DNA of 55,879 nucleotides from Clostridia bacterium (GTDB lineage: Bacteria; Bacillota; Clostridia; Christensenellales; Borkfalkiaceae), in the NCBI GenBank assembly GCA_017457225.1, contig JAFTHW010000021.1, forward strand, positions 1 through 55,879, in the 5' to 3' direction. Each line of letters opens with the position of its first letter. Position 1 is the first letter of the stretch. The notes below the pieces were generated by a model. That model saw only the letters and a list, made by a program, of their open reading frames with translations, had not been told where the DNA came from and ran no database searches. A program made the translations under genes and the position numbers. Below are positions 32,886 through 49,646 of this stretch, piece after piece.

Positions 32886-32913
32886 CGGGTTTGAAGAGCA
32901 ATACGATCAAACG

Positions 32914-32943
32914 AAAACCGTCTTCTAAGGAGGACGGTTTTAT
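32914..32943 (+). terminator. Terminator after pfkA
   Basis: The arms AAAACCGTC and GACGGTTTT; the 3' arm supplies the T run. Confidence 0.75.
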
Positions 32944-33043
32944 CGCGTAAATAGCGGGGAGAATTTTTCACAATCCTGATTAAAAAAGGAATTTTTTCGT
33001 TATATAATATATGGGTGCTTTACGTACCGAATAAGGGGTAAAA

Positions 33044-33967
33044 ATGATTTTAACGGTTTGTATGAGTCCTTGCACGGACGTGACGATCGAGCTGGATTCG
33101 CTCAACGTCGGGAAGACGAACGTGGTAAAGAGCAAAACGCTTTCGTTTGCCGGGAAAGCGCTGAATGTCGCCATCGGAGTCAGTCGCCTCGGCGGTGAAG
33201 TATATACGACGGGATTAATGTATAACGAGAATGGTTATATGTTTGAAAACGCTTTAGATAAAGAGGGCGTTCCGTTTACGTTTGTGTGGAATAAGGGTAG
33301 AGCGAGAGAAAATTATAAATTTATCGACAATCGCGCGATGTTGACGGAAGTCAACGACGTAGGCGAGGAAATCCAAAAAGAAAAAGCGGAGGAAGTCCTT
33401 TCTCTCGTGCGAATGTTATCGGCGAGAAGCTCGGTAACCGTACTTTCGGGAGGATTGCCTCGCGGTTTGGACGGGAGTTTTTACGGTAAACTCGTTCGGG
33501 CGGTAGAGTCGGACGTGAAAAAAATCGTCGACGCTTCTGGGGCGCGCCTGATCTCTGCGATCAGCGAGGGGGTGGATCTTGCAAAGCCTAATTTGGATGA
33601 GTTGGAAAACGTACTCGGTAGACGGATCGAGAGCAAAGAGGATATGCTCAAAGGCTGTTACGAATTGATTGACCGAGGCGCGCAACGCGTATTGTTGTCG
33701 CTTGGAAAACGAGGCGCAGTAATCACAGACGGATCGAGAAATTATTATTGTCGGAGTATGAACGTAGCGGTGAATTCGACGGTCGGCGCAGGTGACGGAA
33801 TGGTTGCGGCGGCGGCATTAAAGCTCGAACAGGACGCTCCGCTGGAAGAAATTCTTCGCGCAGGCGTGGCGGCGGGTACGGCAACGGTTATGACGGCGGG
33901 AAAAACTTCGTTTACCAAAGAAAAGTACGGCGAAGTACTCGCCAATTTGCAAGTCAGCGAAATTTAA
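33044..33967 (+). CDS. PfkB-family kinase, probably 1-phosphofructokinase-like
   Basis: 307 residues with AAGGGG seven bases upstream. The ribokinase fold shows an N-terminal LTVCMSPCTDVTIELD, substrate region GKALNVAIGVSRLGG, GGLPRGL, and the catalytic anion-hole motif TVGAGDGMVAAA with the base Asp. The closest subfamily is FruK/LacC (1-phosphofructokinase or tagatose-6-phosphate kinase). No fructose PTS gene is adjacent, so the sugar cannot be assigned. A TATAAT at 33003-33008 with a weak -35 probably drives it. Confidence 0.87.
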   Translation: MILTVCMSPCTDVTIELDSLNVGKTNVVKSKTLSFAGKALNVAIGVSRLGGEVYTTGLMYNENGYMFENALDKEGVPFTFVWNKGRARENYKFIDNRAMLTEVNDVGEEIQKEKAEEVLSLVRMLSARSSVTVLSGGLPRGLDGSFYGKLVRAVESDVKKIVDASGARLISAISEGVDLAKPNLDELENVLGRRIESKEDMLKGCYELIDRGAQRVLLSLGKRGAVITDGSRNYYCRSMNVAVNSTVGAGDGMVAAAALKLEQDAPLEEILRAGVAAGTATVMTAGKTSFTKEKYGEVLANLQVSEI

Positions 33968-35195: not shown

Positions 35196-35224
35196 TTGTG
35201 ATAAAAAGAAAAATATGATATAAT
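35196..35224 (+). promoter_or_regulatory. Promoter of the malate/fumarate/Hdr-Flx-Frd operon
   Basis: TTGTGA (35196-35201) and TATAAT (35219-35224), spacer 17. The leader of about 95 bases contains a small AAACTT / AAGTTT hairpin (35226-35241). It is the only convincing promoter before the 11-gene run that follows. Confidence 0.72.
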
Positions 35225-35325: not shown

Positions 35326-36276
35326 ATGACAAACAAAGTTACTATTATCGGCGCAGGTTCGGTAGGCGCTACCGTAGCGTACACCTTGGTAGCAACGGGT
35401 TCGGTTGCGGAGATCGTATTGATCGACGTCAACGAAGCGAAGGCGAAAGGAGAGGCTCTTGACATCAGACAGGCTACGCCTTATCTTTCCCCTGTAAAAA
35501 TTTATTTCGGAACGTATGAAGACGCGACGGGTTCGGACATCGTCATCATTACGTCTGGCGTTGGCAGAAAGCCCGGTCAATCGCGTATTGATCTGACGCA
35601 GACGAACGTAAATATTCTCAAGAGCATCGCTCCTCAGATCGTAAAATACGTTCCCGACGCTTTGTATTTGTTCGTAGCGAACCCCGTAGACATTCTAACT
35701 TACGTATTTTGCAAAATCACGGGCGTGCCTAAGAATCGCGTAATCGGTACGGGTACGACGCTAGACAGCATTCGTTTAAGAACTCGTCTTTCGGAGTTGT
35801 ATTCCGTGAACCAAAAACAAGTACACGCGTACGTACTCGGCGAACACGGCGATTCGTCGTTCGTAGCTTGGTCGGCGGCGGATATTTCCGGAATTCCTTT
35901 GGAGGACTACGAGAAAACGCTTACGGCAAAAGACGCGCTCACCGTGACTCCCTATACTCGCGAAGAGGTAGAGGAGTACGTGAAGAAGTCGGGAGGACAG
36001 ATCATTGCGGGGAAAGGCGCGACGTTCTACGGGATTGCGGCTTGCGTAACGCAGATCGTCAACAGCATCTATTCCGGCGCGTATACGATTTTGCCTGTAT
36101 CGACGGTTTTGGACGGCGAATACGGCATTTCCGACGTAGCGCTTTCTACCCTTTGCGCGATCGGCAATCAAGGAATTATCACGACGTTGACGCCTAAACT
36201 TTCGGATGAGGAATTGGAAAAGATGAAAAACAGCGCGGAAGTTTTAAAGGGCGTTCTCGCGCAGATCGAAATTTAA
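35326..36276 (+). CDS. L-lactate/malate dehydrogenase family, substrate uncertain
   Basis: 316 residues from ATG 35326 (GGAG nine bases upstream). NAD site IIGAGSVGATVAY, ANPVDILTYVF, the catalytic region VLGEHGDSSF with the active His, and LDSIRLR for the substrate Arg are present. In the specificity loop GVGRKPGQSR, residue 81 (position 102 in lactate dehydrogenase numbering) is Arg, as in malate dehydrogenases, not the Gln typical of lactate dehydrogenase. Position 246 appears to be Thr (KGATFYG), which is lactate-dehydrogenase-like. fumC follows by 15 bases and a fumarate reductase ends the operon, so malate formation from oxaloacetate is favoured by context. Confidence 0.85.
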   Translation: MTNKVTIIGAGSVGATVAYTLVATGSVAEIVLIDVNEAKAKGEALDIRQATPYLSPVKIYFGTYEDATGSDIVIITSGVGRKPGQSRIDLTQTNVNILKSIAPQIVKYVPDALYLFVANPVDILTYVFCKITGVPKNRVIGTGTTLDSIRLRTRLSELYSVNQKQVHAYVLGEHGDSSFVAWSAADISGIPLEDYEKTLTAKDALTVTPYTREEVEEYVKKSGGQIIAGKGATFYGIAACVTQIVNSIYSGAYTILPVSTVLDGEYGISDVALSTLCAIGNQGIITTLTPKLSDEELEKMKNSAEVLKGVLAQIEI

Positions 36277-36291
36277 GGATTGGAGAAAAGT

Positions 36292-37668
36292 ATGGAATAT
36301 CGTATTGAGAAAGACACGATGGGGGAAATGCAAGTTCCCGCAGACAGATATTGGGCGGCGCAGACGCAGAGAAGTTATCAAAACTTCCGTATCGGCGACG
36401 AAGTAATGCCCCGTGAAATCACGCGCGCGTTCGGGATCTTGAAAAAAGCGGCGGCACTTGCCAATCATAAACTCGGTAAATTGCCTGAGGAAAAGAAAAA
36501 TGCGATTGCGGCGGCTTGCGACGAAGTGATTTCGGGCGAACTCAACGGGCACTTCCCCTTGGTCGTATGGCAAACGGGTAGCGGCACGCAGTCGAATATG
36601 AACGCGAACGAAGTTATTGCAAATCGCGGCAACGAGATCGCGGGAACGAAACTTTTGCACCCCAACGACGACATCAACAAGAGTCAGAGCTCTAACGATA
36701 CGTTCCCGACGGCAATGCACATCGCGGCAGTGTGTGCGATCGAAGATAATCTCTTCCCTGCGATGGATACGCTGATCGCAACGCTCAAGAGATTGGAAGC
36801 GGAAAACGAGGGGATCGTAAAAAGCGGCAGAACGCATTTGCAGGACGCCGTACCCATCGCGTTCTCCCAAGAGATCAGCGGTTGGACGAATATGGTGGAA
36901 AAAGCGAAAGCGCAACTCACGTTGGCGCTTCCCGGATTAAAAGAACTCGCACTCGGCGGTACGGCGGTCGGTACGGGCTTGAACGCACCCAAGGGCTTTG
37001 CGGAAGAAGTGGCGGCGCAGGTAAGCGCGTTGACGGGAAAAACGTTCGTGACGGCGGAAAACAAATATCACGCGTTGACGGCGAAAGACGAGCTCGTATT
37101 CGCGCACGGAGCGTTGAAAGCATTGGCTTGTAATCTGATGAAGATTGCCAACGACGTGCGTTGGTTGGCGAGTGGCCCTCGCGACGGTTTGGGAGAAATT
37201 TTTATTCCCGAAAACGAGCCCGGTTCTTCGATTATGCCCGGTAAAGTCAACCCGACGCAATGCGAATCGATGACAATGGTTGCCGTACAGGTTATGGCAA
37301 ACGACGTAGCGGTTGGCGTTGGCGCTTCACAGGGTAATTTCGAGCTGAACGTATTTATGCCCGTGATCATCTATAATTTCCTGCAATCGGTAAGACTTTT
37401 GGCGGACGGTATCGTATCGTTTGAAAAGAACTGCGTGACGGGTATTAAAGCGAATAAGGAGAAGATGAAGCATAACCTTTACAACTCCTTGATGCTCGTT
37501 ACGGCGCTCAATCCGTACATTGGGTACGAAAACGCGGCGAAGACGGCGAAGAAAGCGTACAAAGAGAACATTTCTTTGAAAGAAGCTTGCGTGGCGCTCG
37601 GGTTCTTGACGGCGGAAAAATTCGACGAAGTATTCCGTCCCGAAGAAATGGCGTATCCCCAGAAATAA
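36292..37668 (+). CDS. fumC: Class II fumarate hydratase
   Basis: 458 residues from ATG 36292 with GGAG six bases upstream; a TTG at 36280 is possible. Motifs: [38 protein letters not shown] and the signature [13 protein letters not shown]. It interconverts malate and fumarate without an iron-sulfur cluster. Between the dehydrogenase and the Hdr-Flx-Frd genes it provides the substrate for fumarate reduction. Confidence 0.96.
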
Positions 37669-37706
37669 TCACGGTTTCAAATTATCGAAAAGGTAGCGTA
37701 TAAGAG

Positions 37707-38489
37707 ATGATGAAGATTTGTTATTATCCCGGATGTACGCTCAAAACGAAAGCGAAAGAATTGGACGTAACGGCTCGTCTTTGCGCAAGCGCTTTGGGCG
37801 TAGAAATGGAAGAAATTGAAAATTGGCAATGCTGTGGCGCAGTGTATCCTATGGGTACGGACGAAATAGCAACCAAACTCTCTGCGGTGCGCGCTTTGGA
37901 TTACGCGAAGAAGAACGGAGGGAAGCTGTTGACGCTTTGCTCTGCTTGCCATAACGTAATCAAACGTACCAACGAGGATATGAAGACGAACGAGGACATC
38001 AGTTTCCGCGCGAACAACTATCTCAAACTTGACGAAGCGTATAAGGGCGAGACGGAAGTTCTGCATTATTTGGAAATGCTGAAAACCGTCGTGGGTTTCG
38101 ACAACATTAAAAAGGCGGTGGTCAATCCCATCAAGAGAAAGATCGGCGCGTACTACGGTTGTCTGTTGCTTCGTCCCAGCGGCGTGATGGCGTTTGACAA
38201 TCCCGAAAATCCTACAATCATTGAGGATTTCATTCGCGCAATCGGCGGCGAGCCCGTCGTATATCCTTTCCGTAACGAGTGTTGCGGCGCGTACGTAGCG
38301 TTAAAGAACGCAGATCTGCCTAAGCAGAAGAGCCGTAAAGTGCTCGCGAGCGCGAAAGAAAAAGGCGCGGAGGAAGTGATCACCGCTTGTCCGCTTTGCT
38401 TGTATAATCTGCAAGTGAACGGTGAGGGGATTCTTCCCGTGAAATACTTTACCGAGCTTCTTGCGGAAGCGTTGGGGGTACAGGCATGA
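37707..38489 (+). CDS. hdrB: HdrB-like subunit with two CCG domains
   Basis: 260 residues; ATG at 37707 or 37710. Two cysteine-rich CCG motifs are seen: CYYPGC, then QCCGAVYP and CSACHNV; and YGCLLLRP, ECCGAYVAL and CPLCLYN. In heterodisulfide reductase, HdrB holds the two noncubane [4Fe-4S] clusters that reduce the disulfide. The same domains also occur in TfrB of the methanogen thiol:fumarate reductase. The stop overlaps the hdrC-like start by four bases. Confidence 0.9.
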   Translation: MMKICYYPGCTLKTKAKELDVTARLCASALGVEMEEIENWQCCGAVYPMGTDEIATKLSAVRALDYAKKNGGKLLTLCSACHNVIKRTNEDMKTNEDISFRANNYLKLDEAYKGETEVLHYLEMLKTVVGFDNIKKAVVNPIKRKIGAYYGCLLLRPSGVMAFDNPENPTIIEDFIRAIGGEPVVYPFRNECCGAYVALKNADLPKQKSRKVLASAKEKGAEEVITACPLCLYNLQVNGEGILPVKYFTELLAEALGVQA

Positions 38490-38872
38490 CGAAAGCAGAA
38501 CGTATTGAAAATCTGAACAGACTCAGCGGCACGGACGTGCGAAAGTGTATGAAATGCGGCAAATGCTCGGGACGTTGTCCGGCGTTTAAAGAAATGGACG
38601 TAAAACCGCATCAGTTCGTTTCCATGCTGGCGCAAGGCAAGATCGATCAGCTGCTTGAAAGTCAGGCGATTTGGAGTTGCCTTTCCTGTATGGCTTGCGT
38701 GGAGCGTTGTCCCCGTGGCGTAGCGCCTGCGGCGGTGGTGGAAGCCGTTCGCGATACGGTGGTGCGTATGCAGGGCAAGAACGGAATCAAAGCGGAGGAG
38801 ATCCCGCCCATCGTGGATGAGTTGATTCCTCAGCAGCTTCTGGTCAGCGCGTATAGAAAATATAACAAGTAA
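38486..38872 (+). CDS. hdrC: HdrC-like iron-sulfur subunit
   Basis: 128 residues starting within the hdrB stop (ATGA overlap). Two [4Fe-4S] motifs, CMKCGKCSGRCP and CLSCMACVERCP, match HdrC, which passes electrons between HdrA and HdrB in a soluble complex. No membrane helix is present. Confidence 0.9.
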   Translation: MTKAERIENLNRLSGTDVRKCMKCGKCSGRCPAFKEMDVKPHQFVSMLAQGKIDQLLESQAIWSCLSCMACVERCPRGVAPAAVVEAVRDTVVRMQGKNGIKAEEIPPIVDELIPQQLLVSAYRKYNK

Positions 38873-38928
38873 TGAAACGTCTTTGGCGTTAGTAAATGAA
38901 AAAATCAAAAGAAAGAGAGTAAAAGGAA

Positions 38929-40920
38929 ATGCAAAGAATAGGTGTTTTTATTTGTTGGTGCGGTAGTAATATCGCGGCGACGGTAGACGTAGAAAAAGTT
39001 GCGGAAGTTATCAAGAGCGAACCTGGAGTCGTCTATTCCGCAAACTACCAGTATATGTGTTCCGAGAACGGTCAACAGCTCATCAAGCAGGCGATCAAAG
39101 AGCACAATCTTACGGGTATCGTCGTAGGCGCTTGCTCGCCGAGAATGCACGAAGCCACGTTCCGCAAAGCGGCGGAAGCGGCTGGATTGAATCCTTATAT
39201 GGTGGAAATCGCAAACATTCGCGAGCATTGTTCCTGGATTCATAAGGACAAGGAAGAAGCGACGGAAAAGGCGGTTATTCTCGTACGTACGGCGATTGCG
39301 AAAGTCAAGCTCAACGCGCCTTTGATGGCAGGGGAAAGCCCCGTTGTAAAACGCGCTTTGGTAATCGGCGGCGGTATCGCGGGTATTCAGGCGGCTTTGG
39401 ATATTGCGGACGCAGGCTTTGAAGTTGATATCGTGGAAAAGAACGCAACGATTGGCGGTAGAATGGCGCAGCTCGATAAGACGTTCCCCACGCTCGACTG
39501 TTCGGCTTGTATTTTGACGCCGAAAATGGTAGACTGCGCGCAGCACGAAAAGATCGATATTTTGTCCTATTCGGAAGTAGAGGACGTCAAAGGTTTCGTA
39601 GGAAACTTTAATGTAACCATTCGCCGTAAAGCTAGATTCGTAGATGAAACCAAGTGTACGGGCTGTAAGATTTGTATGGAAAAATGTCCGTCTAAGAAAG
39701 GACTCAATTCTTTCAATATGAATCTTGACAAACGCCCTGCGATCTACATTCCGTTCGCGCAGGCGATCCCCAACGTAGCGGTGATCGATCCCGAACAGTG
39801 TATCAAGCTTAAGACGGGCAAGTGCGGTATTTGTCAAAAATTCTGCGGCGTGGGCGCGATCGATTACGAACAGAAAGACAGCTTTATTGAACGTCAGTAC
39901 GGCGCGATCGTCGTGGCGACGGGCTTTAAGCCAATCAACCTCGACGCGTTTAACGAATACGGATACGCGGACAATAAAGACGTCATCACGTCGTTGGAGT
40001 TGGAGCGTTTGATGAACGCGGCTGGTCCTACGGGCGGTACGTTGTTGCGTCCTTCCGATAACGAACATCCGAAAGTAATCACGTTTATTCAATGCGTAGG
40101 CTCTCGTGATTCCAGCGGTTGCGGCAAGCCTTATTGCTCGAAGATCTGCTGTATGTATACGGCGAAGCACGCAATGCTCATTCGTGAAAAATATCCCGAT
40201 ACCGAAGTTCACGTATTCTATATCGACGTTCGTACGCCCGGTAAGAATTACGACGAATTCTACCGCCGCGCGGTGGAACAGTACGGAGTGGACTATATCA
40301 AGGGTATGGTCGGCAAAGTGTATAACGAAAACGGTAAGTTGATGGTGCAGGGTTCTAACCTCATCGACAACGAACAAATTACGATTGCATCCGATCTCGT
40401 CGTTCTCGCAACGGCGATCGAACCCGAGCCTTCGGTTAGAAAGGTGGCTACGTTGCTCACGGCGAGCATCGATACCAACAACTTCCTCACCGAATCCCAC
40501 GCGAAGCTTCGTCCGGTAGAAAGTCCTACGGCGGGCGTATATCTCGCAGGCGTATGCCAAGGCCCGAAAGATATTCCTGAAACGGTATCGCAAGCTTCCG
40601 CTTGCGCGGCGAAAGTAATCGGCTTGCTCGTAAAAGATAAACTCAAGACCAATCCTTGCGTAGCGACGCCCGATGAAATGATGTGTAACGGATGTAGCCA
40701 ATGCGCGAACGTATGCGCGTACGGCGCGATCACGTATCTCGATAAGGAATTCCGTCTCGGCGGCGGTAAGACGGAAACCCGTCGCGTAGCGTCGGTCAAT
40801 CCTGCAGTATGTCAAGGTTGCGGCGCGTGTACGGTAACTTGTCCGTCGGGAGCGATGGATCTGAAAGGATTCAGCTCGAAACAGATTATGTCGGAGGTAG
40901 AAGCGATATGCAAGAAGTAA
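38929..40920 (+). CDS. hdrA: HdrA-like FAD and iron-sulfur subunit, probable bifurcating centre
   Basis: 663 residues. An N-terminal domain (GVFICWCGSNIAATVDV, VGACSPRMHEATFR) precedes the FAD domain VIGGGIAGIQAALDIADAGF (about 145-165). Cluster motifs are CTGCKICMEKCP (about 242), CGICQKFCG (about 304), CNGCSQCANVCAYGAI (585) and CQGCGACTVTCPSGAM (627), that is, the HdrA core plus a C-terminal ferredoxin-like insert. HdrA flavin is the established bifurcation site in HdrABC complexes. I see no in-frame TGA or selenocysteine. The 56-base gap after hdrC carries an AAAAGGAA ribosome site. Confidence 0.92.
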   Translation: MQRIGVFICWCGSNIAATVDVEKVAEVIKSEPGVVYSANYQYMCSENGQQLIKQAIKEHNLTGIVVGACSPRMHEATFRKAAEAAGLNPYMVEIANIREHCSWIHKDKEEATEKAVILVRTAIAKVKLNAPLMAGESPVVKRALVIGGGIAGIQAALDIADAGFEVDIVEKNATIGGRMAQLDKTFPTLDCSACILTPKMVDCAQHEKIDILSYSEVEDVKGFVGNFNVTIRRKARFVDETKCTGCKICMEKCPSKKGLNSFNMNLDKRPAIYIPFAQAIPNVAVIDPEQCIKLKTGKCGICQKFCGVGAIDYEQKDSFIERQYGAIVVATGFKPINLDAFNEYGYADNKDVITSLELERLMNAAGPTGGTLLRPSDNEHPKVITFIQCVGSRDSSGCGKPYCSKICCMYTAKHAMLIREKYPDTEVHVFYIDVRTPGKNYDEFYRRAVEQYGVDYIKGMVGKVYNENGKLMVQGSNLIDNEQITIASDLVVLATAIEPEPSVRKVATLLTASIDTNNFLTESHAKLRPVESPTAGVYLAGVCQGPKDIPETVSQASACAAKVIGLLVKDKLKTNPCVATPDEMMCNGCSQCANVCAYGAITYLDKEFRLGGGKTETRRVASVNPAVCQGCGACTVTCPSGAMDLKGFSSKQIMSEVEAICKK

Positions 40921-41363
40921 CTACGGAAAAGAAAGAATTTACGCCGAATATCGTAGCGTTCTGCTGTAACTGGTGTTCGTACGCCGGCGCGGATCTTGCA
41001 GGCTCCAGCCGTCTGACGTATCCGGCGAACGTAAAGATCATTCGCGTACCTTGTTCCTGTCGTGTAAATCCCACGTTCATTTTGAAGGCGTTCCAACAGG
41101 GCGCGGACGGCGTAATCCTTTGCGGTTGCCATCCCGGGGATTGTCACTACGTTACGGGTAACTATTACACGAGAAGAAGAATGGCGCTCCTGTTCAATTT
41201 CCTGGATTATATGGGGATTGAAAAAGAGCGTACCCGCGTAGAGTGGGTATCCGCGGCAGAGGGCGCGCGTTTCTCCGCCGTGATGAACGATTTCGTGGAA
41301 ACGGTAACGAAACTTGGCGAAAATAAACGCCTTACCGACTTGAGAGTAAAGGAGGGCGAGTAA
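40908..41363 (+). CDS. MvhD/FlxD-like [2Fe-2S] subunit
   Basis: 151 residues from ATG 40908, overlapping the hdrA stop by 13 bases, with GGAGGT upstream. The domain shows FCCNWCSYAGADLAG, VPCSCRVNP and GVILCGCHPGDCHY, the cysteines of the methyl-viologen hydrogenase delta family. In related complexes this protein hands electrons from the input module (hydrogenase, formate dehydrogenase or Flx) to HdrA. Confidence 0.9.
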   Translation: MQEVTTEKKEFTPNIVAFCCNWCSYAGADLAGSSRLTYPANVKIIRVPCSCRVNPTFILKAFQQGADGVILCGCHPGDCHYVTGNYYTRRRMALLFNFLDYMGIEKERTRVEWVSAAEGARFSAVMNDFVETVTKLGENKRLTDLRVKEGE

Positions 41364-41364
41364 G

Positions 41365-42342
41365 ATGAAAGACGTAGAATTGAAAATGATAGAGCGCGCG
41401 AAAGCGCTGTTGGAAAGCGGTGAAGTTGCTCGTGTAGTCGGCTGGAAGAAAGGGGATTTTTGTTTCGATCCCTCCCCTGCGGTTTTTGAAACGGTAGAGG
41501 AATTGAAAGATTTCGTTTACGATTATTTCTGCGGCGCAAACCTTTCCAAATACTTGATCCAAGTCAGCAAGAAAGAAGGTAAAACGGCTGTATTTTTGAA
41601 GCCTTGCGATACGTACAGCTTTAATCAGCTCGTAAAAGAATACCGTATCAAGCGTGAAAACGTGTACGTGATCGCGGTAGAGTGCCTTGGAAAACTCGAT
41701 ATCGAAAAAATTAAAGGAAACGGAATCGTCGGCGTGACGGGTGTGGAAGTCGTAGGCAAGGACGTAAACGTTACGTCTGCTTACGGAAATGCGACGTTGT
41801 ATAAACCCGACGTCGTGCTTACGAAATGCGCTACTTGTACGAAAACGCACGTAGCGAAAGACGAGGAGATCATTCTGCACGAGCGTGAAGCCAAAGACGT
41901 AAACCGTTTTGAAGAAGTGGAGAAATTGGAAGCGATGACCGCAGACGAACGTTTCGCGTTCTGGCGTGAGCAATTATCCAAGTGTATCCGCTGTAACGCG
42001 TGCCGTAACGTATGTCCCGCTTGTTCGTGCTTGAAATGCGTATTTGACAATCCCGCTTCGGGGATTGCGGCGAAAGCGAACGACGATCAATTTGAGGAAC
42101 AGTTGTTCCACGTGATCCGCGCGTTCCACGTATCGGGCAGATGTACGGATTGCGGCGAATGTTCGAGGGTATGTCCTCAAAACATTCCTCTGCACCTTCT
42201 CAATCGAAAATTCATCAAAGATATCGACGGCTTGTACGGCGAGTATCAAGCCGGCGAAGAATCCGAAGGCAAAACGCCGCTCACTTCGTTTACCGAAGGG
42301 GATTCGGAAGTCAACGACGTGGTTTACGGGGAGGCGAAATAA
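41365..42342 (+). CDS. FlxC-like iron-sulfur protein (F420-reducing beta/FdhB-like)
   Basis: 325 residues with AAGGAGG nine bases before the ATG, one base after the MvhD-like stop. A KPCDTYSFNQLVKE segment and two cysteine clusters, CIRCNACRNVCPACSCLKC (about 206-224) and CTDCGECSRVCPQN (259), match the coenzyme F420 hydrogenase beta/formate dehydrogenase beta family. In Desulfovibrio Flx-Hdr, a subunit of this type lies in the NADH-input module. The order here is D-C-B-A. Confidence 0.8.
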   Translation: MKDVELKMIERAKALLESGEVARVVGWKKGDFCFDPSPAVFETVEELKDFVYDYFCGANLSKYLIQVSKKEGKTAVFLKPCDTYSFNQLVKEYRIKRENVYVIAVECLGKLDIEKIKGNGIVGVTGVEVVGKDVNVTSAYGNATLYKPDVVLTKCATCTKTHVAKDEEIILHEREAKDVNRFEEVEKLEAMTADERFAFWREQLSKCIRCNACRNVCPACSCLKCVFDNPASGIAAKANDDQFEEQLFHVIRAFHVSGRCTDCGECSRVCPQNIPLHLLNRKFIKDIDGLYGEYQAGEESEGKTPLTSFTEGDSEVNDVVYGEAK

Positions 42343-43388
42343 TGTTGAAGATTGCAAAAGAAAGATTGAACGAGCTGTACGCAAAGATCAATGAAACGAT
42401 GGGTTTGTTTATTCCCGTGAAAAAAGCGGGCGAAGTGAATTACGCCGTTTGGAGCGAAGGAAAAGAAGTGTCCCTTGAAACGTTGAAAACGGTAAAATCC
42501 CCCAAGAATATCTTCTTCCCGCAAACGGAAAATATGATGAAGTTTAAAACGGACGGTAAAAACATCGAGGTAATCGACGTACGTCAGGCGCTCGCGGAAA
42601 AAACGGACGAAAAGCCCTTTGTGGCGTTCGGAGTGAAGGCTTGTGATTATAAGGCGATCGAAGTGCTCGATAAAGTATTCCTTGCCGATCCCGTAGACAC
42701 CTATTATCAAATCAGAAGAGAAGCGACGACGATCGTAACGTTGGCTTGCTCCCGTCCAGAAGAAAGCTGTTTTTGCGGCGTATTCGGAATCGATGCGGCG
42801 GCTCCGCAGGGCGACGTAACGACTTGGCTTGACGACAACTATCTGTATTGGCGGGCGAACACCGAAAAGGGCGAGAGCTTGACCGAGCTTGTCAAAGAGC
42901 TTTTTGAAAACGGCGGAGAAGCGGAAGTCGAAGCGCAGCAGGCGGCAACCAAAGCGGTTTTGGAAAGCTTGCCTTTTGCGGCGTTGGATTTGAGTCGTTT
43001 CAAACCCGAAAACCTGAACGAATTATTCGACGATCCCGCTTGGGAGTCGTTGAGCGAAGCGTGCCTGGGTTGCGGAACGTGTACGTTCGTATGCCCGACT
43101 TGTCAATGTTTCGACATTCGCGATTTCAAGACGAACGAAGGCGTAATCCGCTACCGCTGCTGGGACTCCTGTATGTATTCGGATTTCACGCTGATGGCGC
43201 ACGGTAACTCCCGTACGACGCAAATGCAAAGATATCGTCAAAGATTTATGCATAAACTCGTATATTATCCCTCGCAGAACGATGGATTGTATTCGTGTGT
43301 CGGTTGCGGACGTTGCGTGAACAAGTGTCCTCAACGTCTGAACATCGTCAAAGTAATCAAAACGCTGGGAGGAAACGCAAATGATTGA
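42342..43388 (+). CDS. FlxB/AsrA-like 4Fe-4S protein
   Basis: 348 residues from ATG 42342 (TAATG overlap with the previous stop) with GGGGAGG upstream. The N-terminal half contains FVAFGVKACDYKAIEVLDKVF and CSRPEESCFCGVFG. The C-terminal half has CLGCGTCTFVCPTCQC (240) and CVGCGRCVNKCPQRLN (318). It is of the anaerobic sulfite reductase A/hydrogenase beta type. No sulfite reductase (siroheme) gene is present, so an electron-relay role with the next gene is likely. Confidence 0.82.
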   Translation: MLKIAKERLNELYAKINETMGLFIPVKKAGEVNYAVWSEGKEVSLETLKTVKSPKNIFFPQTENMMKFKTDGKNIEVIDVRQALAEKTDEKPFVAFGVKACDYKAIEVLDKVFLADPVDTYYQIRREATTIVTLACSRPEESCFCGVFGIDAAAPQGDVTTWLDDNYLYWRANTEKGESLTELVKELFENGGEAEVEAQQAATKAVLESLPFAALDLSRFKPENLNELFDDPAWESLSEACLGCGTCTFVCPTCQCFDIRDFKTNEGVIRYRCWDSCMYSDFTLMAHGNSRTTQMQRYRQRFMHKLVYYPSQNDGLYSCVGCGRCVNKCPQRLNIVKVIKTLGGNAND

Positions 43389-44208
43389 AGAAAATCTCAT
43401 TCCGAAAGTAGGCGTCATTACGGACATTCGTAAAGATACGCCCGACGTAAAAACTTTCCGCGTGGTAGGAACGGACGGCAAAAAGCTGTTCCAACATATG
43501 CCCGGGCAATGCGCGATGGTATCCGTGCCCGGCGTCGGCGAGTGTATGTTCTCCATCACTTCTTCGCCTACGAACGAAGAATATATGGAATTTTCCATTA
43601 AAAAATGCGGTTGTGTAACCGAAGTGATTCACGCTATGGAAGTCGGTCAGCAGATCACTGTTCGCGGTCCGTACGGCAAGAACTTCCCCGTGGAAGAGGA
43701 TTTTAAAGGCAAAGATTTGCTCTTTATTGCCGGCGGTATCGGTCTTGCGCCTTTGCGCAGCGTAATCAACTACGTTCGTCATTACCGTGAAAATTACGGC
43801 AAAGTCGTCATCGTGTACGGTGCGAGAAGTAAAGACGATCTCGTGGACATTGAAGAGATCCAAACGGAGTGGGTAAACGAACCGAACACGGAAGTTTATC
43901 TCACGATCGACCGTCCTCAAGAAGGTTGGGGCGGACACGTTGGATTCGTACCTGCCTATGTCAAAGAGTTGGGGTTAGACCCTTCGATGACGGCGGTTTT
44001 GTGCGGACCTCCCATTATGATCAAGTTTACGCTGGCGGGGCTTTTAGAGCTCGGCTTTGAAAAATCCCGCGTATATACGACATTGGAACTCCGTATGAAA
44101 TGCGGTATCGGCAAATGCGGAAGATGCAACGTAGGCGATAAGTTCGTATGTAAAGACGGTCCCGTGTTCCGTATGACGGAGCTCGACGAATTGCCCGACG
44201 AGTATTAA
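43381..44208 (+). CDS. FlxA/AsrB-like FAD-NAD(P)H oxidoreductase
   Basis: 275 residues, start overlapping the previous gene by eight bases. A ferredoxin-NADP reductase fold is visible: FAD part around HMPGQCAMVSVPG and MFSITSSPT, NAD(P) part FIAGGIGLAPLRSVI (about 118) and VLCGPPIMIK. The C-terminal PyrK-like cluster is CGIGKCGRCNVG-x3-C. This is the probable NAD(P)H entry point of the complex. Confidence 0.87.
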   Translation: MIEENLIPKVGVITDIRKDTPDVKTFRVVGTDGKKLFQHMPGQCAMVSVPGVGECMFSITSSPTNEEYMEFSIKKCGCVTEVIHAMEVGQQITVRGPYGKNFPVEEDFKGKDLLFIAGGIGLAPLRSVINYVRHYRENYGKVVIVYGARSKDDLVDIEEIQTEWVNEPNTEVYLTIDRPQEGWGGHVGFVPAYVKELGLDPSMTAVLCGPPIMIKFTLAGLLELGFEKSRVYTTLELRMKCGIGKCGRCNVGDKFVCKDGPVFRMTELDELPDEY

Positions 44209-44220
44209 GGAGAGAAAACT

Positions 44221-44895
44221 ATGGAAAAAATGGTAAACGTATTTCTTTTCGGTAAACGCTATCAAGTTCCGGAAAGTTTAACGATTATGAAAGCGATGGA
44301 GTACGCAGGATATCAGCTCGTCCGCGGTTGCGGATGCAGAAACGGTTTCTGCGGCGCTTGTTCGACCATTTACCGTATCAAAGGTCAACAAGAACTCAAA
44401 ACCTGTCTTGCTTGTCAACAGCAAGTAGAAGAGGGCATGTACGTAGCGACGTTGCCGTTCTTCCCCTTGGTTAAGCAAGTGTACGACATCAATCAAGTCA
44501 AACCCACGCAGCAAATTATGATGCAGCTTTATCCCGAGATTTATTCGTGTATCGGTTGTAACGCTTGTACGAAGAGCTGTACGCAAGAACTCAACGTAAT
44601 GCAGTATATTGCGTACGCGCAACGCGGAGAGTACGAAAAATGCGCGGAAGAGAGCTTTGACTGCGTAATGTGCGGCGTATGTTCGTCCCGTTGTCCGGCT
44701 GGGATTTCCCATCCGCAAGTGGCGGTACTTGCACGTAGACTTACGGGTAAGTATCTTGCTCCCAAGAGCGAACATCTTGTCAATCGCGTAGCGGAGATCG
44801 ACGCAGGGGATTGCAAAGCGGCTTTGGAGGCGATTATGAACACGCCTTTGGAAGAACAAAAGAATCTGTATAACCACAGAGAGATCGAGAAATAA
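44221..44895 (+). CDS. Soluble fumarate reductase-like iron-sulfur subunit
   Basis: 224 residues with AAGGAG before the ATG. An N-terminal [2Fe-2S] ferredoxin domain (CGCRNGFCGAC and CLAC, residues 37-63) is followed by two [4Fe-4S] motifs, CIGCNACTKSCTQ (110) and CVMCGVCSSRCPAG (147). This is the FrdB/SdhB layout, although without a canonical [3Fe-4S] quinone-side arrangement. With no membrane anchor gene nearby, it probably connects FrdA to soluble Hdr proteins rather than to quinone. Confidence 0.78.
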   Translation: MEKMVNVFLFGKRYQVPESLTIMKAMEYAGYQLVRGCGCRNGFCGACSTIYRIKGQQELKTCLACQQQVEEGMYVATLPFFPLVKQVYDINQVKPTQQIMMQLYPEIYSCIGCNACTKSCTQELNVMQYIAYAQRGEYEKCAEESFDCVMCGVCSSRCPAGISHPQVAVLARRLTGKYLAPKSEHLVNRVAEIDAGDCKAALEAIMNTPLEEQKNLYNHREIEK

Positions 44896-44905
44896 GGAGA
44901 AGCGT

Positions 44906-46510
44906 ATGTATCAATATACTCAAGAACAACTTGAATCGATGAAAAAAGTAGAAGAAACCCGCGCTTCCCGTATCGAGAATCTGCACGCGCGTATGACGGC
45001 GGAAGAAAAGGACGCCGTGTTGGCGGAATTTCACCCCGACTATATCACTTCGGCGTATGAAGAGTTGAAAGTAGGTAAAAATAAAGGTGGAAAAGTCCTG
45101 CACGAATTGGCGGCGTTGTTGCAAGGTCATTCCCGTGTTGCGGATATGGACATCGACCTTACGAAGATCGATTACGACGTAGACGTACTCGTCATCGGAG
45201 GCGGTGGCGCAGGATCTTCGGCGGCGATTGAGGCGCACGAACGCGGCGCAAACGTTATGATCGCGACCAAACTCCGTTTGGGCGACGCGAATACGGCGAT
45301 GGCGGAAGGCGGTATTCAGGCTGCAGATAAACCCAACGACAGCCCTGCAACGCACTATCTTGACGCGCTCGGCGGCGGTCACTTCAAAAACAAACCCGAG
45401 CTGCTTTATAAGCTCGTAAACGAAGCTCCCGAGGCGATTTTGTGGCTCAACAACCTCGGCGTTATGTTCGATAAAGAAGCGGACGGCACGATGGTAACCA
45501 CGCACGGCGGCGGTACATCCAGAAAGAGAATGCACGCTTGCCGCGACTATTCGGGCTCGGAAATTATGCGTACGCTCCGTGACGAAGTCTTCAACCGCGG
45601 TATTACCGTAGTGGATTTCACGGCGGCGATCGAATTGATCAAGGATACGGACGGCAAAGTTGCCGGCGCGGTTTTGTTGAATATGGAAACGAAAGAAATC
45701 CTGATCGCAAGGGCGAAAACCGTCGTAATCGCGACGGGCGGCGCAGGTAGATTGCATTATCAAGGCTTCCCCACGTCCAACCACTACGGCGCGACGGCGG
45801 ACGGTTTGGTATTGGGCTATCGCGCAGGCGCGAAATTGCTCTATCCCGAAACGTTGCAGTACCATCCTACGGGCGCAGCGGAACCCACGCAGATCTACGG
45901 CGCGTTGGTAACCGAAAAAGTACGTTCGCTTGGCGCTCAGCTCGTTAACAAGGACGGCGAAGCGTTCGTGTATTCCTTGGAAACGCGTGACGTTACGGCA
46001 TCTTCGATTATACGCGAATGTAAAGAACGCAAGAACGGTATCAAAACGACGGACGGCGAAGGCGTATGGCTGGACACGCCGCTCATCGATATTCTCAATG
46101 GCGAGGGTACGATTGAAAAGCGTATTCCCGCAATGCTTCGTATGTTCGGTAAATATGGTATTGATATCCGTAAAGAGCCGATCTTGATCTATCCGACTCT
46201 CCATTACCAGAACGGCGGTTTGGACATCGGCGCGAACGGTATGACGTGCATTGAGAACTTGTACGTAGCCGGCGAAGCGGTTGGCGGCATTCACGGTACG
46301 AACCGTTTGATGGGTAACTCCCTCCTCGACATTATCGTATTCGGTAGAAACGCAGGTCAGCAGGCGGGTGAGAAGTGGAAGAGCGTAGAACTCAAAGAAT
46401 TGACGCTCGATCACGTGAAAGAGTTCGAGAAAGAATTGGAAGAAGCGGGCATTTCTTCGGAAGTCCGTTCGCCCAAGCTCCTGCCCGATTATAGAAGGCA
46501 AGCGAACTGA
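44906..46510 (+). CDS. frdA: Fumarate reductase/succinate dehydrogenase-type flavoprotein
   Basis: 534 residues with AAGGAG upstream. FAD motif VLVIGGGGAGSSAAIEA (about 93-109), THGGGTSRKRMHACRDYSG, ATGGAGRLHYQG. Catalytic positions of the family are kept: His in QYHPTGA, Glu in LVTEK, Arg in ETRDV, His in LHYQNGG and Arg in HGTNRLMGNSL. The usual RGEGG is replaced by RSLGA. The first ~90 residues are an extension before the FAD domain. L-aspartate oxidase is a related alternative, but the context of fumarase and an FeS subunit supports fumarate reductase. Confidence 0.87.
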   Translation: MYQYTQEQLESMKKVEETRASRIENLHARMTAEEKDAVLAEFHPDYITSAYEELKVGKNKGGKVLHELAALLQGHSRVADMDIDLTKIDYDVDVLVIGGGGAGSSAAIEAHERGANVMIATKLRLGDANTAMAEGGIQAADKPNDSPATHYLDALGGGHFKNKPELLYKLVNEAPEAILWLNNLGVMFDKEADGTMVTTHGGGTSRKRMHACRDYSGSEIMRTLRDEVFNRGITVVDFTAAIELIKDTDGKVAGAVLLNMETKEILIARAKTVVIATGGAGRLHYQGFPTSNHYGATADGLVLGYRAGAKLLYPETLQYHPTGAAEPTQIYGALVTEKVRSLGAQLVNKDGEAFVYSLETRDVTASSIIRECKERKNGIKTTDGEGVWLDTPLIDILNGEGTIEKRIPAMLRMFGKYGIDIRKEPILIYPTLHYQNGGLDIGANGMTCIENLYVAGEAVGGIHGTNRLMGNSLLDIIVFGRNAGQQAGEKWKSVELKELTLDHVKEFEKELEEAGISSEVRSPKLLPDYRRQAN

Positions 46511-46537
46511 TTAAAGGAAAAGTATAAATAACGGAAC

Positions 46538-46568
46538 AAAACGCACGGAGGTACGCTTTGTGCGTTTT
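46538..46568 (+). promoter_or_regulatory. Hairpin between frdA and the transporter gene
   Basis: AAAACGCAC / GTGCGTTTT with a 13-base loop. The trailing T tract is short (four T), so it may only lower read-through from the operon into the transporter gene. Confidence 0.4.
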
Positions 46569-46594
46569 CGTCCGCATAGTAGGAGTGGAAAAAA

Positions 46595-47971
46595 ATGGAA
46601 AAAGAAACGAAAAAGAGTCTGAAATGGCTTTGGATTACGATCGCGCTCGTCGCTGTGGCAGGAGTTGCCGTATGGTGCATTTTAAGCGCGGTGTATAATC
46701 CCAAGGCAGGTAAAGACGGCGCGGCAAATATTTTCAATACGCAAACAACTACGTTTGTTATGTTCACGATTGCGTTTGTCGTCATCGGTTTGGGGTATTT
46801 GTTGGGCGCTATTGATATCAAAGGCGTATCGCTCGGTACGGCAGGCGTGTTCTTGGTAGCGATTTTGGTGGGCTTCCTTTGCACGCTGATTCCCGAAGAC
46901 GCAGGAATTTTCTCGGGGTTTCATTTAACGGAAAGTTCCGCGGTAGTGAAAAACTTAAAAAGTACCGTACAAAATATCGGTTTGATCTTGTTCGTAGGTA
47001 GCGTAGGCTTTATTGCAGGTCCTAATTTCTTTAAGAATTTGGCGAAGAACTTTAAAACGTATATTTTGATGGGTATCGTGATTATTTTGTTGGGTACTTT
47101 GGTGGCAGTGCTTTGCGTGCTGTTGACGGATTACGGCCCTGCGTATTGGTCGGGAGTCTTGTCGGGCGCGTTGACGTCTACGCCCGGTTTCTCGGCGGCG
47201 ATTGACGCGGTAGGGAACAACGAAGCGGTCAAATCGCTCATTACGCTGGGTCACGCAATCGCTTATCCGTTCGGCGTTGTCGGCGTAGTATTGTTCGTAC
47301 AATTGATGCCCAAATTCGTAAAAGCGGATATGGCGAAAGAAAGAGATTATTTACGTATAGGCGCGGCGGAGGAAGCGAGGGATTATTCCAAGTACTTCAA
47401 ATGTGAAGAATTCGGGTTCTTGCCTTTCGCGCTCGCGGTAATCGCAGGTCTTGTATTGGGCTCGATCACGATCCCTTTAACGGGGAAAGGCTACGACGGC
47501 GCAACGTTCTCTCTCGGTACGACGGGCGGCGTATTGATTATGTGCTTGGTATTTGGGCATTTCGGTCACCTCGGCAAACTCTCGTTGGAAGTCAATGAAA
47601 AAACGTTAAAAGTGATGCGTGAGCTCGGGTTGGCTCTCTTCTTGCTCGGCGCGGGAGTGGACGGCGGCGTATCGTTGGTGGCGCAGGTAAAAGCAAACGG
47701 CGGCGCAATCGTTGCGTGGGGCTTTATCGGCGGCGCGGTGATGACGGTCGTTCCTATGATCGGCGGTTATTATTTGGGTAAATATTTACTCAAGCTGCCT
47801 CTTTTGAACAATCTTGGCTCGATCACGGGCGGTATGACGTCTACGCCTGCATTGGGGACGTTGATCGCAACGGCGGAAACGGACGACGTAGCGTCGGCTT
47901 ACGCGTCTACGTATCCGATCGCTTTGATCCTCATCGTCTTAGCATCGCAGCTACTGATTACGTTAATGTAA
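46595..47971 (+). CDS. AspT/YidE-family transporter, possible dicarboxylate exchanger
   Basis: 458 residues, about 10-11 membrane helices in two halves. Each half has the duplicated family signature: GALTSTPGFSAA in the first and GGMTSTPALGTL in the second. A soluble loop (residues about 245-275) lies between them. The aspartate:alanine exchanger family includes AspT and the succinate exporter SucE1 of Corynebacterium. Its place 84 bases after frdA makes succinate export, or aspartate/succinate exchange, a reasonable inference. No ligand can be read from sequence. Confidence 0.85.
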   Translation: MEKETKKSLKWLWITIALVAVAGVAVWCILSAVYNPKAGKDGAANIFNTQTTTFVMFTIAFVVIGLGYLLGAIDIKGVSLGTAGVFLVAILVGFLCTLIPEDAGIFSGFHLTESSAVVKNLKSTVQNIGLILFVGSVGFIAGPNFFKNLAKNFKTYILMGIVIILLGTLVAVLCVLLTDYGPAYWSGVLSGALTSTPGFSAAIDAVGNNEAVKSLITLGHAIAYPFGVVGVVLFVQLMPKFVKADMAKERDYLRIGAAEEARDYSKYFKCEEFGFLPFALAVIAGLVLGSITIPLTGKGYDGATFSLGTTGGVLIMCLVFGHFGHLGKLSLEVNEKTLKVMRELGLALFLLGAGVDGGVSLVAQVKANGGAIVAWGFIGGAVMTVVPMIGGYYLGKYLLKLPLLNNLGSITGGMTSTPALGTLIATAETDDVASAYASTYPIALILIVLASQLLITLM

Positions 47972-47978
47972 CGCAAAA

Positions 47979-48018
47979 ATCCCCGCCGTATATTTCGGAT
48001 ACGGCGGGGAAATTTTAA
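47979..48018 (+). terminator. Terminator after the transporter gene
   Basis: TCCCCGCCGTAT / ATACGGCGGGGA, a 12-bp stem, followed by AATTTTAAAA; the T tract is weak. Confidence 0.78.
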
Positions 48019-48078: not shown

Positions 48079-48168
48079 GCAGAGATGGCGGAGCGGTCGA
48101 ACGCGCACGATTCGAAATCGTGTTATGCAGGAATGTATACAAGGGTTCAAATCCCTTTCTCTGCGCCA
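48079..48168 (+). tRNA. tRNA-Ser, anticodon CGA
   Basis: Acceptor arms GCAGAGA (48079-48085) and TCTCTGC (48158-48164), G discriminator and encoded CCA. Anticodon arm CACGA-TTCGAAA-TCGTG with CGA at 48113-48115; long variable arm as expected for tRNA-Ser; T arm AAGGG-TTCAAAT-CCCTT. A tyrosine integrase gene pointing toward it begins an element 98 bases away, so its 3' part is the likely attachment site. Confidence 0.96.
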
Positions 48169-48244: not shown

Positions 48245-48267
48245 TTGGGGAATTTTTGGGGAATTTT
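48245..48267. repeat. Two tandem TTGGGGAATTTT repeats at the integrase end
   Basis: Copies at 48245-48256 and 48256-48267 with an 11-base period, about one helical turn. They lie between the tRNA and the integrase stop, where arm-type integrase sites are often found. Confidence 0.6.
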
Positions 48268-49596
48268 ACCACTTATTTAGTTTTTTACCTTCTTTTAGAA
48301 GGTATGCATCCGATAAATCACGATAAGTGTTGGTCAATACACCTGCACTATGTCCTACAAATTCATCTCTTGCCGGCGCTGCTACGTTTAATTCGTCACA
48401 ACGTGTATAGAACGTTGTGCGTAAATCATATAGCTTATGTCCGAAGCAATAAGTAGGAAAGCGGTGAGACATCGTTTTTTCCGCTCGCATATCAATTTTG
48501 GAAAGGTCGTAATCGATTTCCGCCAGGACTGCATCCAATTTCTTGTGGATAGGAATCTTTTTATATGTTACCTTTTGATTTTTTCGCTTTGAATTGATTG
48601 CTACGATAAATTTCCCTTCGATTCGCACGGTCTTTATTTCGTTCGGTCTTAAACCGCAGTATAAGGCGAGCGCATATAAAATTTTATACGGTGTACCGTC
48701 CACGTTGTAAAAAAGTGTTGTTTCTTCATCTCGTGTCAATGCTTTTCCATGCTCGCGTTCGTGTTTAACGTAGGGGACAATATCCAACGGGTTGCGCGGA
48801 AGGATTCCGTGCGCGATGGCGGCCTTGAACGTTACGGATAAAAGGGAACGAACATCGTCAGCTGTTTTATTCAGTCCGTTTTCACGCAAATGAGAAAGTA
48901 ACTTTGCACAATCGGAGGGAGTGATTTTTGAGATCTCCCTTTCCCCAAACGTAGGGTATACGTGATTTCGCAACCTGTATTGATCGTTTTGATAGGTCAG
49001 CTTCGATACTTTCAATTTACGAAAATTCTCAAAGTAATATTCCGCAAAGGATTGAAAGGTTGTAGGGATTATAGATTCTACAGCCTTTTCCGATGAATTT
49101 GTATTACGAAGCTTTTCTATAAAATTCGCCTTAGCTAGTTCAATAGTTTTACCGCAGGCGGACAGGTTGTAACCGTTAGCCCGATATCGAATCTCGTAAG
49201 TGGTTCCTTTACCGCTTTTCTTTTTACGTAAACGGCAACGTTTTTTTGCTATGATAATCAGTTTTCTAAAATGTGATGGCATTTGTCGTATCTCCTTTTC
49301 AGTAAATTCAACAAAGCCTTGTTCCGTTTCCGACGCTTCCCCGGCGTCGTTTTTTTTTATGATACCTCCTTTTAAAACATTGTTTTCAAATCCGACGTCG
49401 GATTTGCCGTCCGTCGCCGAGCGATTTCCTTGCCGGAACATCGTCGGGAACGGTAGCACGTTGTCCGAGTCGTTTTTTTTAGTCCTTCCGATCTCGCCAG
49501 GGCGAGCGGTTCCGCCCGGGCGGAAACATCTTGGTACAGCTCCATCAGAAGCTGTACTGCAGTGAAAAGGATCTCTTTTTGCTCTTTGTGTGTCAT
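48266..49596 (-). CDS. Tyrosine integrase, reading frame interrupted at an A8 run
   Basis: A start with GGAG six to nine bases upstream lies at 49596 and reads MTHKEQKEILFTAVQLLMEL. This frame would stop at 49372, but a -1 shift at the A8 run (minus strand, 49480-49473) continues into the main integrase frame, giving 443 residues in all. The catalytic domain shows LALYCGLRPNEIKTVR (box I Arg), LYDLRTTF (box II, Tyr instead of the usual His) and VGHSAGVLTNTYRDL (His and nucleophile Tyr). An internal ATG at 49282 with AAAGGAG nine bases upstream could give a 338-residue integrase without any shift. It presumably recombines the element at tRNA-Ser. Confidence 0.85.
49387..49406. repeat. Palindrome copy A, inside the integrase gene
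   Basis: Perfect 20-bp palindrome CAAATCCGACGTCGGATTTG; its inner 18 bp recur at 51412-51429 and 52872-52889. Confidence 0.9.
49473..49480 (-). other. Candidate -1 ribosomal slippery site in the integrase gene
   Basis: On the minus strand the zero frame reads CTA AAA AAA ACG, i.e. an in-phase A-AAA-AAA heptamer. Slipping back one base continues as AAC GAC TCG into the integrase frame. GGAAGG lies three bases upstream of the run's ACT, and two perfect hairpins (CTCGCC/GGCGAG and the 16-bp palindrome at 49510-49525) lie further upstream. Confidence 0.5.
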
Positions 49597-49646
49597 TGGT
49601 ATATCTCCTTAACAGTAATGTAAGGGACATTATATACCAAAAAGAA

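Follow-up and report, generated by a model that had tools for sequence, protein, structure and literature searches.

Organization of the operon

The 55,879-nucleotide stretch of DNA analyzed here (contig JAFTHW010000021.1 of assembly GCA_017457225.1, referred to throughout as the window) comes from a Clostridia bacterium of the Borkfalkiaceae whose genome is assembled in 42 contigs totalling 1.38 Mb. Its closest named relatives, among the best 80 of 492 in a named-genome scan, are gut Clostridia metagenome-assembled genomes, including Candidatus Scatosoma. Twelve genes on the forward strand (35326–47971) encode, in order, a dehydrogenase, FumC, HdrB, HdrC, HdrA, FlxD, FlxC, FlxB, FlxA, FrdB, FrdA and an AspT-family permease, and form a candidate operon for a soluble, electron-bifurcating fumarate reductase.

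Nine core genes (HdrB-HdrC-HdrA-FlxD-FlxC-FlxB-FlxA-FrdB-FrdA) occupy 37707–46510 without interruption; their families were assigned from Pfam and NCBIfam matches, and solved relatives by alignment to PDB entries. HdrB (37707–38489; family match and tree) has two CCG domains with a complete set of ten cluster cysteines and is of a type associated with FrdBA, here called Frd-type. It is followed by HdrC (38486–38872), a 2x[4Fe-4S] protein by family match, and by HdrA (38929–40920), the putative bifurcating subunit, with FAD and multiple [4Fe-4S] clusters according to its family match and alignment. FlxD/MvhD (40908–41363) matches the MvhD/FlpD family (E 6.7e-57); FlxC (41365–42342) is a dicluster Fe-S protein by family match and resembles F420 formate dehydrogenase beta chains in the PDB (E 2.6e-24); FlxB (42342–43388) is an AsrA/HydB-like Fe-S protein by family matches; and FlxA (43381–44208), an AsrB/HydG-like NAD(P)H:flavin oxidoreductase module, has sulfhydrogenase 1 gamma as its best solved relative (9nez_C, E 1.9e-55). 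Family matches give FrdB (44221–44895) a [2Fe-2S] cluster and two four-Cys cluster motifs (2Fe-2S plus dicluster FrdB-like), and family matches and alignments identify FrdA (44906–46510; FAD_binding_2) as the catalytic subunit of a fumarate reductase, belonging to a separate subfamily.

The core is preceded by a dehydrogenase of the lactate/malate dehydrogenase (LDH/MDH) family (35326–36276), probably a malate dehydrogenase from NCBIfam models and an Arg residue discussed below, and by a class II fumarase, FumC (36292–37668; Lyase_1 and FumaraseC_C). It is followed by the AspT-family permease (46595–47971; Asp-Al_Ex, E 2.7e-61), a possible succinate exporter judging by its position. By their coordinates, genes overlap at HdrB/HdrC (4 bp), HdrA/FlxD (13 bp), FlxC/FlxB (1 bp) and FlxB/FlxA (8 bp), and are separated at FlxD-FlxC (1 bp), FlxA-FrdB (12 bp), FrdB-FrdA (10 bp) and HdrC-HdrA (56 bp). 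The consecutive, tightly packed arrangement after a dehydrogenase and fumarase, with its order and strand, is thus as described in an earlier sequence-only reading of this DNA, as is the lack of an anchor gene (FrdC/SdhC) among the operon genes.

That reading also placed the operon behind one promoter. A good promoter-like site, TTGTGA-N17-TATAAT with TG ahead of the second hexamer, was found by consensus scan upstream of the first gene (35196–35224, forward strand). However, the operon region has 12 promoter-like sites against a shuffle mean of 13.3, so transcription from this single promoter can be called only likely. Terminator-like sites are likewise not in excess (15 against a shuffle mean of 19.8); one of them, a consensus match to a 12-pair stem-loop at 47980–48010, with no strand assigned although the scan lists it on the reverse strand, is a possible terminator following the permease gene.

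Conservation of the gene cluster

Within the genus FrdB is present in 32 of 37 genomes, and the remaining five are 61–73% complete. A class-wide sample has an FrdB ortholog (E at most 1e-15, the weakest match seen being 2e-78) in 43 of its 293 genomes, spread over 29 of 181 genera. HdrA, counted at E at most 1e-150 to exclude weaker HdrA-like matches, is also found in 43 of the 293, and the two occur together in 42 (Fisher p 1e-48, ignoring relatedness); since the genomes are related, this and the Fisher value given below are not exact probabilities. The exceptions are one genome with FrdB only, in which a contig end truncates HdrA (G340), and one with HdrA only (G079).

Besides the window, 42 loci were fetched from the class. 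All nine genes lie on one strand in 34 of these, including one with HdrA in two pieces (L060), and seven loci are cut by contig ends. Locus L072, completed by L079 in a second fetch, has the order FrdBA-HdrBCA-FlxDCBA. Any of the nine genes is missing only where a contig ends, and of six further loci from the order and genus five have all nine and one is cut (L077). Because the cluster recurs in this way across the class, the nine-gene arrangement is more than chance; the operon is real and strongly conserved, and its parts are inherited together. Two contigs titled Spirochaetales/Spirochaetaceae, among the best 80 of the 492 relatives, carry FrdB genes 80–81% identical to that of the window (L121, L139), suggesting lateral transfer or mis-binning.

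FrdBA is a distinct subfamily

In a phylum-wide sample, FrdB is found in 26 of 249 genomes, all of which also carry FrdA at an identity of at least 52%, with the next FrdA matches at no more than 42%. One genome (G434) carries two FrdA copies; the second (L180), 56–57% identical to that of the window, has no FrdB match beside it and by eye lies near genes resembling tripartite ATP-independent periplasmic (TRAP)-type transporters. All of 40 aligned FrdA proteins match FAD_binding_2. Common to them is an N-terminal stretch, of about 90 residues in the window's protein, that matches no Pfam family there; the Sdh/Frd C-terminal domain family, which we take to be PF02910, is absent from the Pfam families matched by the 40 proteins.

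Residues His320, Arg361, His433 and Arg467 of FrdA, invariant in 40/40, align with SdhA residues that presumably form the substrate site. Asn129 aligns with the FAD-linking His of Escherichia coli SdhA, which we take to be the site of covalent FAD attachment. A pattern search places Asn at this position in 175 of 181 loci, and inspection shows it in the other six as well; the loci include repeat genomes. In FrdB, twelve cluster cysteines are invariant in 39/39; the third motif holds four, of which the second (Cys151) stands opposite Ile in an aligned SdhB. Mutant work in E. coli indicates that an enzyme whose FAD is no longer covalently bound reduces fumarate in preference to oxidizing succinate, and that a fourth cysteine converts the [3Fe-4S] cluster into a low-potential [4Fe-4S] cluster. 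Asn129 and the four-Cys third cluster would therefore fit a soluble, quinone-free enzyme working in one direction. By these sequence features FrdBA constitutes a subfamily of its own.

In the PDB, FrdA finds its best match in a succinate dehydrogenase (7d6v_A, E 5.6e-61); the best match of FrdB is weak (E 4.2e-07). L-aspartate oxidase (NadB) was rejected as an identity for FrdA, which scores 276 of 453 bits, under the curated cut-off, and is paired with FrdB. A membrane (quinol) fumarate reductase was likewise rejected: the operon has no anchor gene, and the anchor family PF01127, the one such family searched, is above cut-off in 0/37 genus genomes, with two weak matches below it.

Partners of FrdBA outside the class

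The 25 further phylum genomes with FrdBA show a variety of partners, several of them assigned by eye. A linked full Hdr-Flx set, in either order, is present in five (G356, G398, G402, G438, G580). Seven, all of one family (G395, G432, G462, G511, G534, G557, G577), have a variant without a FlxA or FlxB match, composed of HdrCB, HdrA, a further HdrA-like sequence, FlxD, an Fe-S protein and FrdBA; G462 was placed here by contig coordinates only, and the G577 locus stops at a contig end before HdrB is reached. The variant is seen in loci L161, L171, L177, L182 and L184, and in L171 the HdrA-like protein has 1092 residues and the Fe-S protein 472. In two genomes HdrCB adjoins FrdBA without HdrA or Flx (G390, G575). 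FrdBA is unlinked, with no donor gene in sight, in five (G361, G468, G516, G539, G562), where by eye its neighbours are genes for malic enzyme, class I fumarase or malate dehydrogenase; in G562 and G468 FrdB lies near the contig start, with upstream neighbours out of sight.

Membrane-type partners accompany FrdBA in four genomes: a protein with Fer4 and cytochrome b561 domains in G380 and, by eye, a similar one in G424, multihaem cytochromes nearby in G386 (by eye), and Fer4 and FMN-binding proteins in G434. No partner was found in the remaining two (G413, G416). The refuting condition named in the sequence-only reading, frdAB mostly apart from the Hdr-Flx genes, therefore does not hold in the class, where all loci uncut by contig ends have Hdr-Flx, but holds in part beyond it, with the full set in just 5/25. 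Many HdrA matches of the phylum sample contain one in-frame TGA, suggesting selenocysteine; the HdrA of the window has none.

HdrB as a candidate adapter

In four of the genomes with unlinked FrdBA (G361, G516, G539, G562), an HdrBCA-Flx operon elsewhere encodes an HdrB 46–53% identical to that of the window, compared with 31–37% in nine picked Flx-Hdr operons from genomes without FrdBA. Trees were built for HdrB, HdrA, FlxA and FlxD, leaving out HdrC, FlxB and FlxC, from class loci thinned to one in four and from ten loci of genomes without FrdBA and second Hdr sets that were hand-picked from the phylum-sample HdrA matches. They are of the 'quick' type, with support by the Shimodaira–Hasegawa-like approximate likelihood ratio test (SH-aLRT) only; HdrB is missing in L164 and L194, and the HdrA tree leaves out L163, L164 and L170. 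In the 41-row HdrB tree, a branch roughly 1.1 changes per column long, with SH-aLRT 100, lies between 27 rows from FrdBA systems, linked or unlinked, and 14 others. Nine of the 14 are from genomes without FrdBA and five from genomes whose FrdBA has another partner, namely its own HdrCB in two and membrane-type proteins in three. L199 (G434), counted with the 27, is on their side by a long branch, though FrdBA there has membrane-type partners. Separating Frd from non-Frd rows takes two label changes for FlxA and three for FlxD. Identity to the window alone does not mark HdrA, HdrC or the Flx proteins as Frd-specific. HdrB as the sole subunit making the distinction would nonetheless be too strong a statement and was dropped, as HdrA also needs only one label change.

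A search of the 249 phylum genomes with HdrB gives a similar picture: the 18 top-scoring genomes (at least 218 bits, a cut placed at the gap after it was seen) all have FrdBA, and the next score is 189 bits. High-scoring HdrB thus marks 18/26 FrdBA genomes and 0/223 others (Fisher p 1e-21, relatedness ignored). The eight FrdBA genomes below the cut are G577, whose FrdBA contig is cut, G468, which has a partial HdrA at 62% identity and no HdrB match, the four with membrane-type partners (G434 at 184 bits) and the two without a partner. Residues typical of the Frd-type HdrB are T11, V84, H120, S79, N89 and Y196.

It has to be considered whether Flx-Hdr and FrdBA are two separate enzymes, the latter fed otherwise, merely co-transcribed for succinate fermentation. 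Such an arrangement would accord with the 6/25 phylum genomes in which FrdBA has cytochrome- or FMN-binding-type membrane partners or none that was found. However, FrdB and HdrA co-occur near-perfectly within the class, and the HdrB type scoring at least 218 bits is present only with FrdBA, even where the two are unlinked; we regard separate enzymes as very improbable. HdrB is instead the likely adapter between Flx-Hdr and FrdB, to judge by these comparisons, which gives a loosely conceived complex an interface that can be tested, and makes the Frd-type HdrB a marker for finding such enzymes even where their genes are unlinked.

Proposed mechanism and metabolic setting

HdrA residues 3–660 match the methanogen HdrA 5odc_A (E 2.3e-207) with the cysteine stretches aligned. 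The protein has what is expected of a bifurcating HdrA: full length, inserted and C-terminal ferredoxin domains and, from the alignment, a Cys group near the flavin. Against the NCBIfam HdrA2 model it scores 802 bits with a cut-off of 1100; this model is fused, HdrA matching positions 1–642 and FlxD 640–774.

We consider it fairly probable that the operon encodes an electron-bifurcating, cytoplasmic NAD(P)H:fumarate/ferredoxin oxidoreductase. The malate dehydrogenase and fumarase would supply fumarate. FlxA would accept hydride from NADH or NADPH, and electrons would then pass through FlxB, FlxC and FlxD to the HdrA flavin. There each pair would be split, one electron being driven uphill to ferredoxin and the other taking a downhill path predicted to run HdrC-HdrB-FrdB-FrdA, with fumarate reduced to succinate at FrdA. 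The balance of two turns would be 2 NADH + fumarate + Fd(ox) -> 2 NAD+ + succinate + Fd(red), Fd being ferredoxin. The AspT-family permease probably exports the succinate. FrdBA as high-potential acceptor of a soluble Flx-Hdr-Frd assembly, the core of the sequence-only reading, is upheld by inference from the co-occurrence, the lack of an anchor gene and the dedicated HdrB type, and that interpretation as a whole is partly supported.

Phosphoenolpyruvate carboxykinase (PEPCK) of the GTP type is present in 34/37 genus genomes, including the source genome, and would supply oxaloacetate; the ATP type was found in 0/37. An [FeFe]-hydrogenase is above cut-off in 20/37, again including the source genome. 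Many of the 37 genomes are incomplete. Among class loci with room for it, a dehydrogenase is upstream in 22/30. By eye, phosphofructokinase- and sugar-phosphate-kinase-like genes lie upstream of the operon (31869–33967), a glycolytic neighbourhood. On the other side, a tRNA-Ser (cga; 48079–48168) is followed by an integrase-like open reading frame on the reverse strand (48266–49813, by eye), which suggests that the tRNA served as the insertion site of an element.

At standard potentials, electron transfer from NADH to fumarate yields approximately -68 kJ/mol, and transfer from NADH to ferredoxin costs 19 to 35. The computed standard free energy of the coupled reaction is approximately -33 to -49 kJ/mol, and the reaction is feasible. 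NADH-driven fumarate reduction is strongly exergonic alone, and Flx-Hdr could be a mere wire in a non-bifurcating soluble NADH:fumarate reductase, with which the failure to find Rnf in the genus (0/37) would also agree. But HdrA with its ferredoxin domains is kept in every class locus uncut by a contig end, and a simple wire would hardly need HdrA. Moreover, H2 nearly abolished succinate formation in Pseudoclostridium thermosuccinogenes, which is read as ferredoxin coupling in the passages considered of PMC7282089. A wire without bifurcation is therefore disfavoured and seems to us quite unlikely.

Several observations weigh against a bifurcating fumarate reductase as the function of this operon. 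FrdBA of this family occurs without HdrA or Flx in other classes, and so does not need them. The distribution is patchy, with no FrdB in 4/4 genomes that belong to the same family as the window but to other genera, and fumarase adjoins the cluster in just 16/30 class loci with room and the permease is downstream in just 21/36. The HdrA tree, too, divides Frd from non-Frd rows and needs a single label change to do so, as that of HdrB does, but its branch is short and weakly supported (0.04, support 76); the 218-bit cut was set post hoc, and by percent identity the two HdrB types touch at about 41% (G398 41%, G497 41%). A search for Rnf-Nqr gave 0/37 genus genomes, for which an Rnf-linked energy model was rejected for the window's genus, and without Rnf any gain from reduced ferredoxin must come via hydrogenase or biosynthesis, where the ferredoxin would be expected to go. 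In P. thermosuccinogenes a sulfide-lowered redox potential acted opposite to H2, a result that the authors call confusing (passages of PMC7282089). The first gene exceeds the NCBIfam cut-offs for L-lactate dehydrogenase (TIGR01771, NF000824). Finally, the ten CCG cysteines are retained in 57/57 Frd-type and 14/14 other HdrB proteins, so a thiol intermediate is possible.

The first gene likewise exceeds the cut-off of the malate dehydrogenase subfamily model NF004863, and has Arg within 'GRKPGQSR', the malate-type residue. We take this to be position 102, known from lactate dehydrogenase engineering as the discriminating residue, with Gln in lactate and Arg in malate dehydrogenases. Arg is present at the same site in 57/70 first-gene homologues at related loci, the pattern being undetected in the other 13. 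Because of the malate-type Arg and the adjoining fumarase, the product is more likely a malate dehydrogenase than a lactate dehydrogenase.

With its full set of cluster cysteines, HdrB could reduce a soluble disulfide or a DsrC-like protein, the resulting thiol feeding FrdBA, such that the two halves are not one complex; FrdBA unlinked to Hdr in 5/25 phylum genomes would be in keeping with this. However, the FrdB here lacks a CCG domain, whereas the TfrB model bears an HdrB-like part, and family matches give no DsrC-like protein among the twelve operon genes, although DsrC was not searched in the genome. The adjacency of FrdBA and Frd-type HdrCB without HdrA or Flx (G390, G575) fits direct transfer, and a thiol relay is in our estimate unlikely.

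Returning to the bifurcating enzyme, a broader proposal is that FrdBA is a plug-in fumarate-reducing module and the dedicated, fast-diverged HdrB its socket, turning an ordinary Flx-Hdr engine into a soluble bifurcating fumarate reductase that many uncultured gut Clostridia use as their main enzyme for forming succinate. We hold this to be an even bet. If true, it would account for how succinate is formed where there are no quinones and no membrane fumarate reductase; gut bacteria lacking the latter would obtain reduced ferredoxin as they produce succinate, one of the major products in the gut, and the role of fumarate as acceptor in Hdr-type flavin bifurcation, so far a proposal in passages of the literature, would be proven.

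Comparison with known systems

The operon differs from quinol:fumarate reductase FrdABCD and from SdhABCD in that no anchor was found, the covalent-FAD His is replaced, the third cluster has a four-Cys rather than a [3Fe-4S] motif and the C-terminal domain family is undetected. The FAD and Fe-S catalytic pair and the aligned substrate-site residues are shared. Methanogen thiol:fumarate reductase TfrAB is soluble, has FrdA-, FrdB- and HdrB-like parts and uses coenzyme M and coenzyme B (CoM/CoB) thiols as donors. The same three parts are found in the window, with FrdB and HdrB as separate proteins and a donor that is presumably NAD(P)H via Flx rather than CoM/CoB thiols. The TfrB model matches FrdB at 19–100 and HdrB at 262–465, indicating two pieces that are fused in the methanogen enzyme. 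TfrAB proper was ruled out, with 354 of 718 bits for TfrA, 35 of 385 (FrdB) and 37 of 385 (HdrB) for TfrB, and separate genes.

All seven genes of a FlxABCD-HdrABC set are together in the window. The same seven classes form FlxABCD-HdrABC of Desulfovibrio vulgaris (Ramos 2015), which is not known to include FrdBA and for which a disulfide was reportedly proposed as acceptor. In tubeworm symbionts and relatives, tfrAB is mixed with flxABCD-hdrABC, and passages of PMC6315080 and PMC11636981 propose that electrons pass from Hdr-Flx, directly or indirectly, to thiol:fumarate reductase, the direct route being that proposed here. That cluster differs in its context of carbon fixation by the reductive tricarboxylic acid (rTCA) cycle and in the presence of korABCD, and in one of the two studies tfrAB expression is described as not tracking the rest of the cluster. 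Among the open-licence papers listed, at most 20 per search and covered by title and abstract start, none was found on an HdrB subtype or on enzyme assays of a Flx-Hdr-Frd complex; fumarate reductase of Blautia luti was measured with methyl viologen in a paper whose text contains no 'hdr' (PMC12773636).

The closest parallel, likened by description rather than sequence, is the 'succinate operon' of P. thermosuccinogenes (CDQ83_RS03365-RS03315). According to the passages of PMC7282089 considered, it contains, by tag order, fumarate hydratase, Flx-Hdr (RS03360-30, seven genes if tags step in fives), then fumarate reductase (RS03325-20) and, last, a hypothetical protein that may transport succinate, and the window operon is of this type by gene classes and block order. 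Expression was approximately 4-fold higher under CO2 limitation, though not significantly for all subunits. The same passages describe a GTP-PEPCK pathway, propose bifurcation to fumarate and ferredoxin, and cite a 2019 preprint for fumarate reductase linked to ferredoxin reduction; they list no malate dehydrogenase in the operon, and P. thermosuccinogenes has Rnf, which was not found in the window's genus. The remark in the sequence-only reading that it knew of no described complex with this exact composition is not supported, in view both of this report of the same gene classes with the same proposal and of the complex proposed in the rTCA symbionts. The bifurcating function is plausible and already in print for a relative, to which the present analysis adds the wide conservation of the gene cluster, the features of the FrdBA subfamily, the variety of its partners and the evidence for HdrB as an adapter.

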